A DNA stretch of 64,000 bases from Polyangiaceae bacterium. GTDB taxonomy: Bacteria > Myxococcota_A > Polyangia > Polyangiales > Polyangiaceae. Below, piece after piece: positions 714-6,467 of this stretch. Every line of letters begins with the position of its first letter. Position 1 is the stretch's first letter. The DNA lies in NCBI GenBank assembly GCA_015075635.1, contig JABTUA010000002.1, positions 1,302,001 to 1,366,000 on the forward strand. The letters run 5' to 3'. Under the pieces are notes generated by a model. The model saw nothing but the letters and a program-made list of their open reading frames with translations. It was not told the DNA's origin and ran no database searches. The translations under genes were made by a program, and so were the position numbers.

Positions 714-1310
714 CTAGCAGCCGCCTGCTGGTGCAAGCCCGCCGCTGCCACCGTTGACGCATGCCGGAGCCCGCGGCCCAGCCGCCGCCGCCGCCGCTCG
801 AGCTGCCGCCATTGCCGCTGCCGCTGGCTCCGCCGTTGCTCGCCCCACCGCCGCCGGTGCTCGAGCAACCGCCGGCACCGCCGCCACCGCTCGGAGGCGG
901 CGGCGCCGCGCCGCAGGTGTGCCGGCCGCCTGCATCTTGCCCGCTTGCGCGATCGGATCCCGACTCGGGCGGAAGAACTGGTAGACGCCGCGGATCACGC
1001 CGGCAGCCTTCGCCCCCTGCCAGTTCGCCTGGAACATACCGTCGGGGTAGTTGAGCCCGTCGCTGGCACGGATGAACGCGAAGTCGTAGCCGGCACCCTT
1101 CACCTTGGTCCAGTCGATGGTCGCCTGCCACTTCGAGACGTCCACGCCTTTGACCAGCGTGCCCGACTTGGGACACACGTTGACCAGCGCCTCCCCCGTG
1201 CTGTCCAGGCACGCGCTGTCCGTGCCTGCACAGCCGACGAACGAGAGGCTGGAGGCGAGCAGCCCAACCGAGAGGGCCGCCAGCACCGAGACGACCCGAG
1301 AGCTGCCCAT
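714..1310 (-). CDS. Lipoprotein with truncated GH25 lysozyme-like domain
   Basis: The 198-residue product has a signal peptide with a possible lipobox (SFVGC, Cys27). From about residue 54 it matches the start of glycoside hydrolase family 25: GVDVSKWQ with the conserved Asp57, then IDWTKVKGAGYDFAFIRASDG, the YPDGMFQANWQGAK block and GVIRGVYQFF. The match stops near residue 125 (DPIAQAGKMQ). In GH25 enzymes the catalytic D-x-E motif and the rest of the barrel come after this point; here only Ala/Arg-rich low-complexity sequence follows. Read in another frame, that stretch becomes a normal Gly/Ser linker, so a deletion or frameshift is likely. An active muramidase is not expected. Confidence 0.65.
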   Translation of the reverse strand: MGSSRVVSVLAALSVGLLASSLSFVGCAGTDSACLDSTGEALVNVCPKSGTLVKGVDVSKWQATIDWTKVKGAGYDFAFIRASDGLNYPDGMFQANWQGAKAAGVIRGVYQFFRPSRDPIAQAGKMQAAGTPAARRRRLRAVAAVPAVARAPAAVGRATAEPAAAAMAAARAAAAAAGPRAPACVNGGSGGLAPAGGC

Positions 1311-1366: not shown

Positions 1367-3583
1367 ATGTCCAAGCGGTGGAGGATCGGGGTCGGGGTCG
1401 TGTGTGCCCTCGGGTGCCTGGGCGGGGCGTTTCACTTCGTGTACGGCGGCGGCGAGCTGGAGAGCGCGGGGACCGTGAACCCCAAGCGCCCGCCGCCGGA
1501 GAGCGTTCAGAGCCGGCGTGAGGCCGAGCGCGTGACCGGCGAGCGCTCGCAGATCTTGTTCGGCGATCTCCACGTCCACACCACGTTCTCCGCCGACGCT
1601 TTCATGCGCAGCTTGCCGCTGCTCGGCGGAGAGGGAGCACACCCGCCGGCGGACGCCTGCGACTTCGCCCGCTTCTGCTCGCAGCTCGACTTCTTCGCCA
1701 TCACGGACCACGCCGAGGGGCTGACGCCGCGGCAGTGGGCCGAGACGAAGGAGTCGGTCCGGCAATGCAACGCGGTGGCCGGGGATCCGGCGAACCCCGA
1801 CGTGGTCGCGTACACCGGCTGGGAGTGGTCGCAGGTCGGGACCACACCGAAGGAGCATTACGGCCACAAGAACGTGATCTTCCGCGAGACGGCCGAGGCC
1901 GCGCTGCCGGCGCGCCCCATCGGCGCTGGCGGCACCGTGGCGGCCGCGATGCGCAACGCCGCTCGCATGGGCGGCGGCTCCGAGCTGGATCGCCTGCTGG
2001 TTCCGGTGCGCGACTTCGCCCGGCGCCAGCGCTACCTCGACCTTCAGGAGTTTCAGCGCGAGTCGGCGCGCGTCGGGGACTGCCCAGCGGGAGTGAACAG
2101 CAAGGAGCTGCCCCGCGACTGTCGGGAGCTGGCGGCCACGCCCCGCGAGCTCTTCGACAAGCTCGATCACTGGGGCTTCGACGCGCTGGTCATCCCGCAC
2201 GGCACCACCTGGGGCTTCTACACGCCGCCTGGCTACACCTGGGACAAGCAGCTCGACCCGAGTCAGAACGACCCGAAGCGGCAGAACCTGTTCGAGATCT
2301 ACTCGGGCCACGGCAACTCCGAGGAGTACCGTTCGTGGCAGGAGGTGAACGGCGCCTTCGACGAGCCCGGCGCGACGTGTCCGGCGCCCACGCCCGATCA
2401 CGAGCCCTGCTGCTGGCGCGCCGGCGAGATCATCCGCGGGCGCTGCGCGGACGCGCCCGCCGCCGAGTGCGAGCGGCGCGTCGAGAAGGCGCGCCTGGAC
2501 TACGTGCGCGCGGGCGTGGCCGGTCACCTGACGGTGCCTGGCGCCGGCGTCGAGGACTGGAAGGACTGCGGACAGTGTCGCGACTGTTTCAACCCCGCGT
2601 TCAGCTATCGGCCCGGCGCCTCCGCGCAGTACGCGCTGGCGAAGGGCGCGAATTTCGGCTTCATCGCCTCCAGCGACAACCACAGCGCACGCCCGGGCAC
2701 CGGCTACAAGGAATTCGGCCGCCGCAAGATGGGTGAGGCCACCGGGCCCGAGAGCGAGTCCTGGCGCCAGCGCTTCTTCCCCAAGCAGAAGCCGCCGTTG
2801 CCGGAGAGCGAGTCACTTGGCGCGGAGGATCTGATGAAGCTGGCTCCGTTCCAGCTCGTGCACCTGGAGCGACAAGCCAGCTTCTTCATGACCGGCGGGT
2901 TGGTCGCGGTCCACAGCCAGGGACGCTCGCGGGAAGCCATCTGGGACGCGCTGCGACGCCGCGAGGTGTACGGCACCTCCGGCGAGCGCATCCTGCTCTG
3001 GTTCGATCTGGAGAACGGCCCGTCCGGACGCGTGGCGATGGGCTCCGAGGTGAAGCTCGGCACGGCGCCGAAGCTCCGCGTGCGCGCGGCCGGCGCGTTC
3101 GCGCAGAAGCCGGGTTGCCCCGACTGGGTCCACGAGCGCCTGGGCGCCCGCGACGTCGAGCGCCTCTGCCTGGGCGAGTGCTTCAACGCCGGCGACCAGC
3201 GCCGGCGCATCACCCGCGTCGAGGTGGTGCGCATCCGCCCGCTCCGGGGCGCGGACGCCGAGCTCGCGACGGCGATCGACGACCCCTGGAAGCGCGTGAG
3301 CTGCGACGCAGGGCGCGAGATCTGCGAGATCGAGCTCGAGGACCCGGAGTTCGTCGAAGGGAAGCGCGACGTCATCTACTACGTGCGCGCCATCCAGGAG
3401 CCCACGCCGGCGGTGAACGCCGGCGGCTTGCGCTGCGAGCGCGACGCGGCCGGCAACTGCGTCCAGGCCCGGCCCTGCTACGGCGACTACCGCACGAAGT
3501 TCGAGGACGACTGCCTCAGCGAGAACGAGGAGCGCGCCTGGTCGTCACCCATCTACGTGCGTTGGCAGGAGGTCACGCCATGA
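1367..3583 (+). CDS. DUF3604 family protein (PHP-like metallo-domain)
   Basis: This 738-residue protein has an N-terminal membrane segment or signal (about residues 7-27) and is probably exported. The body matches the DUF3604 family, related to PHP-type metal-dependent phosphoesterases: LHVHT at 68-72, AITDHAE with Asp114/His115, the GWEW motif, and SSDNHSARPG near residue 436 supply His/Asp residues suited to a metal site. The biochemical reaction of the family is not established. It has many Cys residues, consistent with a periplasmic location. The stop TGA overlaps the ATG of the following PpiC-like gene, so the two are translationally coupled and the next gene may help fold this product. 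Confidence 0.85.
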   Translation: MSKRWRIGVGVVCALGCLGGAFHFVYGGGELESAGTVNPKRPPPESVQSRREAERVTGERSQILFGDLHVHTTFSADAFMRSLPLLGGEGAHPPADACDFARFCSQLDFFAITDHAEGLTPRQWAETKESVRQCNAVAGDPANPDVVAYTGWEWSQVGTTPKEHYGHKNVIFRETAEAALPARPIGAGGTVAAAMRNAARMGGGSELDRLLVPVRDFARRQRYLDLQEFQRESARVGDCPAGVNSKELPRDCRELAATPRELFDKLDHWGFDALVIPHGTTWGFYTPPGYTWDKQLDPSQNDPKRQNLFEIYSGHGNSEEYRSWQEVNGAFDEPGATCPAPTPDHEPCCWRAGEIIRGRCADAPAAECERRVEKARLDYVRAGVAGHLTVPGAGVEDWKDCGQCRDCFNPAFSYRPGASAQYALAKGANFGFIASSDNHSARPGTGYKEFGRRKMGEATGPESESWRQRFFPKQKPPLPESESLGAEDLMKLAPFQLVHLERQASFFMTGGLVAVHSQGRSREAIWDALRRREVYGTSGERILLWFDLENGPSGRVAMGSEVKLGTAPKLRVRAAGAFAQKPGCPDWVHERLGARDVERLCLGECFNAGDQRRRITRVEVVRIRPLRGADAELATAIDDPWKRVSCDAGREICEIELEDPEFVEGKRDVIYYVRAIQEPTPAVNAGGLRCERDAAGNCVQARPCYGDYRTKFEDDCLSENEERAWSSPIYVRWQEVTP

Positions 3584-4413
3584 AGACACCGGGGAATTGG
3601 CTGCTTTTGTGCGGCGCGCTGGCGGGCGTCGCGCTGGCGACGGCGGGCATCGTGCGCGCGCCGAGCCCTCGGCTTCCAGACGACGCGGTGGCCGTGGTCA
3701 ACGGTCAGCCGATCCGACGCGCCGACTACGAGACCGCGCTGGCCGCCGCCGCCGCGGACGGGAAGCGCGGGACGGAGGATCCTGCGCTCCGACGCCACGT
3801 GCTCGAACGCCTGATCGACGAGGAGCTGCTGGTGCAGGCGGCGCTCGAGCTCGGGCTGGCTCAGCGCGACCGGCGGGTGCGAGCGGATCTGTCGTCGGCG
3901 ACCTTGAGCTTCGTCACGGAGGCGCCCGCGAAGGAGCCGAGCGAGGGCGAGCTGCGGGACTTCTTCCGCGAGAACACGGGTTACTTCACGAGCGACGCTC
4001 GCGTCGAGGTCGAGGAGCTGTACTTCGAGGGCCCGGCTGCGCGGAGCCGCGCACTCGCAGCGCGCGCGGACTGGCGAGAAGGGCGAACCGTGCCCGCGGA
4101 CCCACCGCCTCTGCCGCTGCCAGCGGGTCAGCTTCCGCTGACCAAGCTCGAGCAGTACCTCGGCCCGAAGCTGGCGCGCGCCCTGGGCGAGCTGCCCGTG
4201 GGTGAGATCAGCGAGCCGCTGGTGAGCGGCGACGGCTACCGGCTCCTCCGCGTGAAGTCCCGCGGCGGCGGGTCCCCGCCGCGCTTCGAGGACGTGCGCG
4301 AGCTGGTGGGCGCCGAATGGCGACGGCGAGCATCGGAGCGAGAGCTGCGTCGTTTCCTGGCCGAGCGTCGGGCGCGCGCGAAGCTCTCTCTACTGCCGGA
4401 GCTCGGCTCGTGA
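3580..4413 (+). CDS. PpiC/SurA-like peptidylprolyl isomerase, membrane-anchored
   Basis: The 277-residue product has an N-terminal membrane anchor or signal (about residues 6-25), then a SurA/PrsA-type N-domain (VAVVNGQPIRRADYE, followed by a helix with LIDEELLVQAALELGL), and a parvulin-like C-terminal region (GQLPLTKLEQYLG, LPVGEISEPLVSGDGYRLLRV). It is expected to assist folding of exported proteins. The rotamase region is short, so catalytic activity is uncertain. ATG overlaps the DUF3604 stop (ATGA), and its own stop overlaps the next start (GTGA). This places it in the middle of a three-gene coupled operon, and its neighbours are the probable clients. Confidence 0.8.
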   Translation: MKTPGNWLLLCGALAGVALATAGIVRAPSPRLPDDAVAVVNGQPIRRADYETALAAAAADGKRGTEDPALRRHVLERLIDEELLVQAALELGLAQRDRRVRADLSSATLSFVTEAPAKEPSEGELRDFFRENTGYFTSDARVEVEELYFEGPAARSRALAARADWREGRTVPADPPPLPLPAGQLPLTKLEQYLGPKLARALGELPVGEISEPLVSGDGYRLLRVKSRGGGSPPRFEDVRELVGAEWRRRASERELRRFLAERRARAKLSLLPELGS

Positions 4414-5570
4414 AGCGGCTCGCCCTCTTGCTGTTCGGCCTGTGTTTGCTGCTCTGGTGCAGCCGCTCCGAGGCGCACACGCGCAGCGTGTCGTACTCGA
4501 CCTGGCGCATCGACGGGCACGCCGCGACGGTGACGGCCCGCGTCAGCTTGCTCGACGCGAGCCTGATCGCTGGGGCGGGCCTGACGGCGCACGTCCGCGA
4601 GGGCCTGCTCCTCTCGACCCCGGCGGGCGCCTGTCGAGCGACCGAGCCGCGGCAGCGCCAGAGCGATCCGGAGTGGATCGAGCTGGTGTGGAGCGTGAGC
4701 TGTCCGGGCGAGGGAGCGCTGACGCTCGGGAGCTCGCTCTTCGTGGCGCAGAACCCGTCCCACCTGCACCTGGCGCGCGTGAGCTTCGGCGACGCGCCGC
4801 CCAGCGAGCACGTGCTCGACGCCCGCGGGCAGAGCGCCACGCTGGAGCGGAGCGCACCCGCGCCCGAGAGCTTCTCTCGCTTCGTTTGGTTGGGCGTGGA
4901 GCACATCGCCACGGGTTGGGACCACCTGCTCTTCGTGCTGATGCTGCTGTTCGCCGCGAGGAGCCTGCGCGGCGCGGCGCTGGTGGTCACCGGTTTCACG
5001 CTGGGGCACAGCGCCACCTTGACCCTCACGGTGCTCGGCGCATTGGCACCCCGCGAGGGACCGGTCGAGGCCCTGATCGCCGCGAGCATCGCGCTGCTCG
5101 CGGTGGAGAACGTCTGGATCGGCGAGGGCCGCGAGCGCGCGCTCTTGCCCGTCGCGGCGGTCCTGACGCTCGTGCTGTCGGCGCTCGCCGCCCTCGCGCT
5201 CTCGCGCTCGGTGGCGCCTGCGCTCTTCGGTGTGGCGCTGTTCGCGGCCTGCTACTTCACTCTAGTCGGCAGGAGCGAGCGGCCAGAGCTGGGTCGCGCA
5301 GCGGTGGCTGCGCTGTTCGGCCTGGTCCACGGCTTCGGCTTCGCGCGAGTGCTCACGAGCATGGAGCTCTCCCCCGTACGCCTCGCCCGCGCTCTCGTCG
5401 GCTTCAACCTCGGCGTGGAGCTCGGACAGCTCGCGGTGATCGCGCTTGCGTTCCCGTTGCTCCTCGCCGTCAGGCGGCGCGCGCCGGAGCGTCCACTCGG
5501 AAGGGTCGCCGCGAGCGCTGCGCTCGTTCTCGCCTGCTACTGGTTCGTGGTGCGGGCGTTCGACGCCTGA
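4410..5570 (+). CDS. HupE/UreJ family membrane protein
   Basis: The GTG at 4410 overlaps the previous stop and gives a clean signal peptide ending near the SEAH site, so it was preferred to an upstream in-frame ATG inside the PpiC gene. The 386-residue product has an exported N-terminal domain of about 140 residues, then a multi-pass C-terminal half with the family signature HIATGWDHLLFVL, plus GFTLGHSATL and FGLVHGFGFA, giving several membrane-embedded His residues. Some HupE/UreJ relatives are nickel permeases tied to hydrogenase or urease, but neither enzyme is encoded nearby. Metal uptake or metal delivery to the DUF3604 protein is an inference. Confidence 0.85.
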   Translation: MKRLALLLFGLCLLLWCSRSEAHTRSVSYSTWRIDGHAATVTARVSLLDASLIAGAGLTAHVREGLLLSTPAGACRATEPRQRQSDPEWIELVWSVSCPGEGALTLGSSLFVAQNPSHLHLARVSFGDAPPSEHVLDARGQSATLERSAPAPESFSRFVWLGVEHIATGWDHLLFVLMLLFAARSLRGAALVVTGFTLGHSATLTLTVLGALAPREGPVEALIAASIALLAVENVWIGEGRERALLPVAAVLTLVLSALAALALSRSVAPALFGVALFAACYFTLVGRSERPELGRAAVAALFGLVHGFGFARVLTSMELSPVRLARALVGFNLGVELGQLAVIALAFPLLLAVRRRAPERPLGRVAASAALVLACYWFVVRAFDA

Positions 5571-5795: not shown

Positions 5796-6467
5796 ATGCA
5801 CGCAATACCAACACCCAAGACCCGAGACGACCGGCTGCGGGTCATGCTCATCGACGACCACCCGGTGGTGCTCGCTGGGCTGAAGAGCTTTCTGCGCGAC
5901 GCTCCCGGCGTCGAGATCTTCGCGACCGCCGTGGACACGAACGAGGCCGTGGGCCGCGCGGCTCACCTGCGCCCCGACGTCTTCCTGGTCACCCTCAGCG
6001 GCTCGACCCCGGGCCCGCTGGACGCCGTCCGCATGCTCCGTGCTCGTTTCCCGGAGGTCGCCGTGGTGGTCCTGGGGCTCGACTCCGGCTGCGCCTCGGC
6101 GAAGGAGCTGATGGTAGCGGGAGCCAGCGCGTTCCTGGACAAGACGGCCGGACGCGACGCCGTGCTGGCGGTGCTCGGGCAGCTTCGCACGGACGAGGAC
6201 ACGGGGTCCCGGCGCTTGCTCGCGCTCGGCGACTCGGTCCCGCCTCCGCCCAGCTCCGGCAGCGGCTCGCTGTCGCGGCGCGAGCTCCAGGTCCTGACCT
6301 TGATCGCCGACGGCTTCACCAACAAGCAGATCGCCGACGAGCTCGGCATCAGCGTGCGGACCGTCGAAACCCACCGCGAGCGCTTGATGCGCAAGCTCAA
6401 CGTCCAGGGAACGGCCGCGCTGACCAAAGCGGCCATCGCGCTCGGACTGGTCAGCGCCAGGTCCTGA
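5796..6467 (+). CDS. NarL/LuxR-type response regulator with altered phospho-site
   Basis: The 223-residue protein has a CheY-like receiver (about residues 14-130) and a C-terminal LuxR-type helix-turn-helix (about 158-223: LSRRELQVLTLIADGFTNKQIADELGISVRTVETH). The acidic pair Asp20-Asp21 and the conserved Lys116 are present, but the position of the phosphorylated Asp at the end of strand 3 is Thr66 (VFLVTLSG where VLMDLSMPG is usual). It is therefore probably an atypical receiver not controlled by ordinary Asp phosphorylation. No histidine kinase is adjacent. The DNA-binding domain looks intact, so a transcription factor role is likely; targets are unknown. Confidence 0.88.
   Translation: MHAIPTPKTRDDRLRVMLIDDHPVVLAGLKSFLRDAPGVEIFATAVDTNEAVGRAAHLRPDVFLVTLSGSTPGPLDAVRMLRARFPEVAVVVLGLDSGCASAKELMVAGASAFLDKTAGRDAVLAVLGQLRTDEDTGSRRLLALGDSVPPPPSSGSGSLSRRELQVLTLIADGFTNKQIADELGISVRTVETHRERLMRKLNVQGTAALTKAAIALGLVSARS

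Follow-up and report, generated by a model that had tools for sequence, protein, structure and literature searches.

Co-occurrence of DUF3604 proteins with a SurA/PpiC-like protein and a HupE/UreJ_2 permease across bacterial phyla

Near the start of the window, a 64,000-nucleotide stretch of a Polyangiaceae genome, three overlapping genes encode a DUF3604 protein, a SurA/PpiC-like PPIase, and a HupE/UreJ_2 permease. The question raised by this locus is whether the three products belong together, and if so, what the PPIase and the permease do for the DUF3604 protein.

The locus and its three products

The three-gene arrangement and the 4-bp overlaps proposed in the initial annotation matched the window coordinates exactly (Table 1), with ATGA forming the DUF3604/PPIase overlap and GTGA the PPIase/HupE overlap. 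Each of the three translations carried one hydrophobic segment at its N-terminus. A separate LuxR-type regulator gene was located downstream of the trio at 5796. The match of the upstream GH25 gene covered only positions 1-70 of the 180 in the profile and was followed by low-complexity sequence, the gene being truncated or frameshifted.

Table 1. Coordinates of the trio, its upstream neighbor, and predicted metal-site residues in the window
Feature	Position	Strand	Remark
Partial GH25 gene, upstream of trio	714..1310	-	Pfam
DUF3604 gene	1367..3583	+	738 aa
HxH metal motif His69-Val-His71, PHP-like site	1571..1579	+	alignment of 20 DUF3604 proteins
Asp437-Asn-His439, putative metal site	2675..2683	+	alignment of 20 DUF3604 proteins
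PPIase gene (SurA/PpiC-like, P0002)	3580..4413	+	277 aa
HupE/UreJ_2 permease gene (P0003)	4410..5570	+	386 aa, GTG start
His23, predicted mature N-terminus, candidate mono-histidine brace	4476..4478	+	...SRSEA/HTRS (slash, cleavage site)
Membrane metal motif His165-x5-Asp171-His172	4902..4925	+	invariant in alignments A2, A5, A8
His200 of GHS motif	5007..5009	+	at least 90% conserved
His307 of HGFGFA motif	5328..5330	+	at least 90% conserved
Asn333 and Glu337, after His307	5406-5420	+	

The first product belonged to the DUF3604 family (PF12228; 98.8 bits against a Pfam gathering cut-off of 20.4). It fell in a divergent subfamily whose identity to canonical members was about 25-29%, with 24 Cys residues and an N-terminal hydrophobic segment assigned as export signal or anchor. 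When 20 DUF3604 proteins from both subfamilies were aligned, His71 was invariant and His69 almost so, and Asp114, His115, Glu153, His167, and His278 were also invariant. The PHP-type ligand pattern HxH...DH...E...H...H...DxH was kept, its residues being invariant or nearly so, and this conservation of the ligand residues across both subfamilies agrees with the predicted PHP-type metal site that had been claimed for this protein. The AF2 model (pLDDT 83.4, pTM 0.89) had the PHP-like structure 3e38 as its top PDB fold match, with a probability of 1.00, an E value of 1.2e-3, and a low TM-score. A sequence search of the PDB returned no relative of DUF3604 or HupE, and matches came from the fold search only. 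The PHP-type motifs, and possibly the fold, are common to DUF3604, BVU_3505 (PDB 3e38, two-domain PHP-like), and the CehA/McbA metallohydrolases. Compared to these, however, DUF3604 is larger, the window subfamily is Cys-rich, and the cut-off of the CehA/McbA family (NCBIfam NF038032) was missed (35.1 versus 80 bits).

The third product scored 144.3 bits against HupE_UreJ_2 (PF13795; cut-off 24.5), and no match of P0003 to PF04955, the classical nickel HupE_UreJ family, was found at E<=0.1. In its AF2 model (pLDDT 88.5), the hydrophobic segment was followed by a beta-sandwich (about 120 aa) and then by about 8 membrane helices. The exported domain matched the folds of ZrgA (8f1b) and PA4063 (7amx), both at E about 1e-4, and, more weakly, the Ig-like beta-sandwich of Cu-loaded Ang-1 (9gce; E 3.4e-4, probability 1.00). 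With the signal cleavage site placed by eye, His23 is the predicted mature N-terminus; an N-terminal His after Ala/Gly, the position it takes after the signal peptide of anglerases, was conserved in most module HupE proteins. Glu337 was at least 90% conserved in the alignments. The initial description of HupE as His-rich was overstated (10 His in 386 aa), although several of these residues are nearly invariant. The argument for nickel drawn from HupE proved weak, in that the domain is PF13795 and not PF04955, and the exported domain matches Zn- and Cu-binding proteins. We infer that Zn or Cu is a more likely metal for HupE than Ni.

The second product, a membrane-anchored protein with SurA_N and Rotamase_2 domains, scored 57.4 bits against Rotamase_2 (cut-off 27) and 38.1 bits against SurA_N_3 (cut-off 27.2). 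The rotamase domain agrees with its label as an isomerase, but the label is doubtful, in that both parvulin catalytic His are absent in P0002, with Glu and Arg at these positions. Among 30 module PPIases, the two positions were occupied by His in 12 and 23 proteins respectively. Because both catalytic histidines are missing, the window PPIase is probably a chaperone rather than an isomerase.

Resemblance to known metal and folding systems

The anglerases Ang-1 and Ang-2 (Franco Cairo et al. 2025, PMC12537917) have the PF13795 membrane domain, an exported beta-sandwich, and a post-signal His in common with the window HupE. The reported Kd values of Ang-1 are 74 nM for Cu and 220 nM for Ni, and it has been proposed to act as an importer; its reported gene neighbors are DUF4198, indigoidine synthase, and PfkB, with neither DUF3604 nor an isomerase mentioned (PMC12537917). 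In contrast to the anglerases, the module HupE proteins formed a separate high-scoring group, the PPIase partner was always present outside Myxococcota, and a few members, six in all (L144, L154, L155, L174, L188, and L197), carried Asp in place of the His that reportedly follows the signal peptide in 100% of published anglerases (PMC12537917). Classical PF04955 HupE/UreJ permeases of hydrogenase and urease operons have a related membrane domain and an accessory role beside a metalloenzyme, whereas P0003 has an exported domain and a DUF3604 partner. Homologues at L137 (36.0 bits) and L206 (20.9 bits) matched PF04955, for which the cut-off is 23. ZrgA, a zinc-acquisition protein (PMC9820375), and PA4063 are periplasmic zinc-binding proteins with the fold of the HupE exported domain; both are soluble, whereas the HupE domain forms one chain with a permease and has His at its start. 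Other PF13795 groups (L240-L259 and L266-L270) occurred without PPIase or DUF3604.

NifM is described as a PpiC-domain protein dedicated to NifH (PMC12691677). Like NifM and the SurA-PpiC maturation factors, the module PPIase, with SurA_N and rotamase domains, would be a PpiC-domain protein that serves a single family of metalloproteins; it differs in being envelope-anchored, in its non-conserved catalytic His, and in its presumed client. No description of a DUF3604-PPIase-HupE module was found in the open-access literature searched, where the single paper naming DUF3604 concerned an unrelated topic.

Co-occurrence and gene order across genomes

A lack of repeated co-occurrence in other genomes had been set beforehand as a refutation of the grouping, and such co-occurrence was found in several phyla. 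The set of one to four DUF3604 genes, PPIase, and HupE recurred in Myxococcota, Pseudomonadota, Bacteroidota, Nitrospirota, and on rhizobial plasmids. In Pseudomonadota (n=200), a full-length module-type HupE (at least 311 bits, the next best score being 240) was present in 10 of the 11 DUF3604 genomes versus 0 of the 189 others (Fisher p about 5e-16). The corresponding numbers in Bacteroidota (n=148) were 3/3 and 0/145, with the remaining HupE/UreJ matches at 185 bits or lower. The HupE profile was made from module members; among the genomes of these two surveys, its known sources of sequence are limited to the two center genomes. In Myxococcota (n=237), window-type DUF3604 relatives were detected in 57 genomes and strong HupE relatives in 54, with 53 in common; HupE was thus present in 53/57 genomes with and 1/180 without this DUF3604 type (Fisher p about 7e-47, uncorrected for phylogeny). 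P0003 as sole query had overlooked a canonical-type HupE in the four HupE-negative genomes, where it was recovered with profile A5. Pfam DUF3604 matches alone were misleading in Myxococcota, with many unlinked paralogues and the best 30 loci mostly outside the module; in four families of this phylum (f19, f23, f34, and f35), tens of candidate DUF3604 stretches per genome were seen.

The PPIase adjoined all 25 module HupE loci examined in the Pseudomonadota and Bacteroidota surveys, whereas neither PPIase nor DUF3604 was near any of 26 lower-scoring PF13795 loci. Among the best 30 Myxococcota HupE loci, five were in DUF3604-negative genomes and had no adjacent PPIase, and most of those in DUF3604-positive genomes had one. 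A contig scan with canonical DUF3604 yielded 79 loci, over 30 of which showed the trio, an adjacency rate that is biased since the loci were picked by DUF3604. The hosts included Marinobacter, Marinobacterium, Microbulbifer, Pseudoteredinibacter, Kordiimonas, Rhodobacteraceae, Burkholderiales, Lutimonas, and a Nitrospirota MAG. DUF3604 was the next gene in 47 of the 60 PPIase-HupE pairs seen, and frequently 2-4 tandem DUF3604 genes were followed by one such pair. The order DUF3604-PPIase-HupE in many Myxococcota was identical to that of the window, canonical DUF3604 included, and the two DUF3604 subfamilies, at an identity of about 27%, had the same PPIase and HupE partners.

The genes were also retained when dispersed. 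In DUF3604-rich Myxococcota, the PPIase-HupE pair was located away from DUF3604 (L094, L095, L098, and L112) or the PPIase and HupE genes were themselves unlinked, and in G062 the three genes were on three different contigs. Genomes with tens of DUF3604 paralogues carried one or few module HupE only. In G124, a single open frame encoded HupE_UreJ_2 (145 bits) followed by a full DUF3604 (535 bits; L341:6147-8780), a fusion seen in one draft genome that one small indel could produce. According to NCBI annotation, the trio was present on plasmids of S. meliloti, R. indicum, Sinorhizobium sp. K101, R. leguminosarum (two), N. petrolearium, Ruegeria, and Pseudoalteromonas, and was not together on a Salipiger plasmid. 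On the conjugative S. meliloti plasmid accessoryA (L350), the module was flanked by genes for type IV secretion and for a relaxase. An additional, short HupE/UreJ gene adjoined the module in R. leguminosarum WSM1325 (L355:9114-9713) and Pseudoalteromonas donghaensis (L360:3863-4558).

The module was undetected in some DUF3604 genomes (Christiangramia and G373) and in several Myxococcota with a single canonical DUF3604 (e.g., G009, G074, G129, G143, and G200), and is therefore not an absolute need of every DUF3604. A 597-aa exported-looking protein, P0004, was encoded beside the PPIase-HupE pair of G067 (L345:8973-10763) and had no Pfam or NCBIfam match, so that module clients may include non-DUF3604 proteins. 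A 611-aa gene upstream of the PPIase-HupE pair in G228 was considered as a DUF3604 and rejected as an AMP-binding enzyme. We conclude that the trio is very probably an undescribed module present in at least four bacterial phyla.

Proposed function and alternative explanations

The initial annotation had read the locus as an envelope system in which the permease supplies metal and the foldase matures the DUF3604 enzyme. Its grouping of the three genes was strongly supported by the multi-phylum co-occurrence, while the nickel and isomerase parts were weakened as described above. Maturation or metal loading of DUF3604 by PPIase and HupE is our best inference, held with slightly more belief than doubt. 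The clients would be one or more exported DUF3604 enzymes resembling PHP-type metallohydrolases. A dedicated membrane-anchored SurA-like chaperone would bind the DUF3604 polypeptide, which is exported and often rich in Cys, the anglerase-type HupE/UreJ_2 permease would capture a transition metal via its N-terminal histidine domain, and the two would jointly bring about folding and metal loading of DUF3604 within the envelope, with one PPIase-HupE pair serving every DUF3604 paralogue of a cell. In other genomes, the neighbors of DUF3604 are mostly catabolic genes (sulfatases, amidase, DUF1302, and a PQQ/cytochrome protein), which weakly suggests that DUF3604 proteins are catabolic hydrolases with varied substrates; these substrates probably differ between paralogues. 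The many-to-one pairing, the retention of scattered genes, and the fusion fit a dependence of DUF3604 on the pair and favor a shared maturation pair over a substrate-specific transporter.

The direction of transport bears on this reading. If the window HupE is an importer, metal would be moved into the cytoplasm, away from the exported DUF3604, and a supply of metal by the permease would then require export, periplasmic hand-over, or an indirect route. A more specific version, in which PF13795 proteins of the module type are periplasm-facing donors whose N-terminal histidine domain and permease pass metal directly to an entire family of exported PHP hydrolases while a dedicated chaperone holds them, is put forward tentatively, as an idea that may well be wrong. 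Import would instead suit an uptake module, in which DUF3604 hydrolyzes a metal-containing, metal-chelating, or other substrate, HupE imports the freed metal, and the chaperone folds both exported parts. Such a module agrees with the known HupE direction, with the published proposal that HupE/UreJ_2 captures and imports metal (PMC12537917), and with the resemblance of the exported domain to zinc-acquisition ZrgA (PMC9820375). However, tens of DUF3604 paralogues would share one or few module HupE, and the DUF3604 neighbors are mainly catabolic rather than metal-uptake genes, leaving uptake unlikely, though the strongest of the alternatives considered.

Another possibility is that the chaperone serves HupE, PPIase and HupE forming a stable pair to which DUF3604 is linked merely through metal need. 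The PPIase does adjoin HupE where DUF3604 is distant (the four Myxococcota loci above, and L219, L220, and L223), and other PF13795 proteins lack this PPIase. Against this, PF13795 HupE proteins in DUF3604-free settings manage without this PPIase, and several Myxococcota have PPIase and HupE unlinked while DUF3604 copies are abundant; we regard this explanation as improbable. Chance association was rejected by the co-occurrence surveys. A fortuitous gene order, or a cassette spread by horizontal transfer with no functional dependence, could draw on the conjugative rhizobial plasmids, where transfer could preserve linkage, but the genes are retained when dispersed, are conserved in several phyla and with both DUF3604 subfamilies, and match nearly exactly in presence and absence, which makes this explanation very hard to believe.

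DUF3604 and HupE/UreJ_2 are large and scarcely studied families, and their near-exact cross-phylum co-occurrence ties them together and suggests a purpose for one HupE/UreJ_2 group. Metal delivery to exported enzymes in the envelope is poorly understood, and a dedicated chaperone-permease pair would make a useful model, which the rhizobial plasmid copies open to direct genetics.
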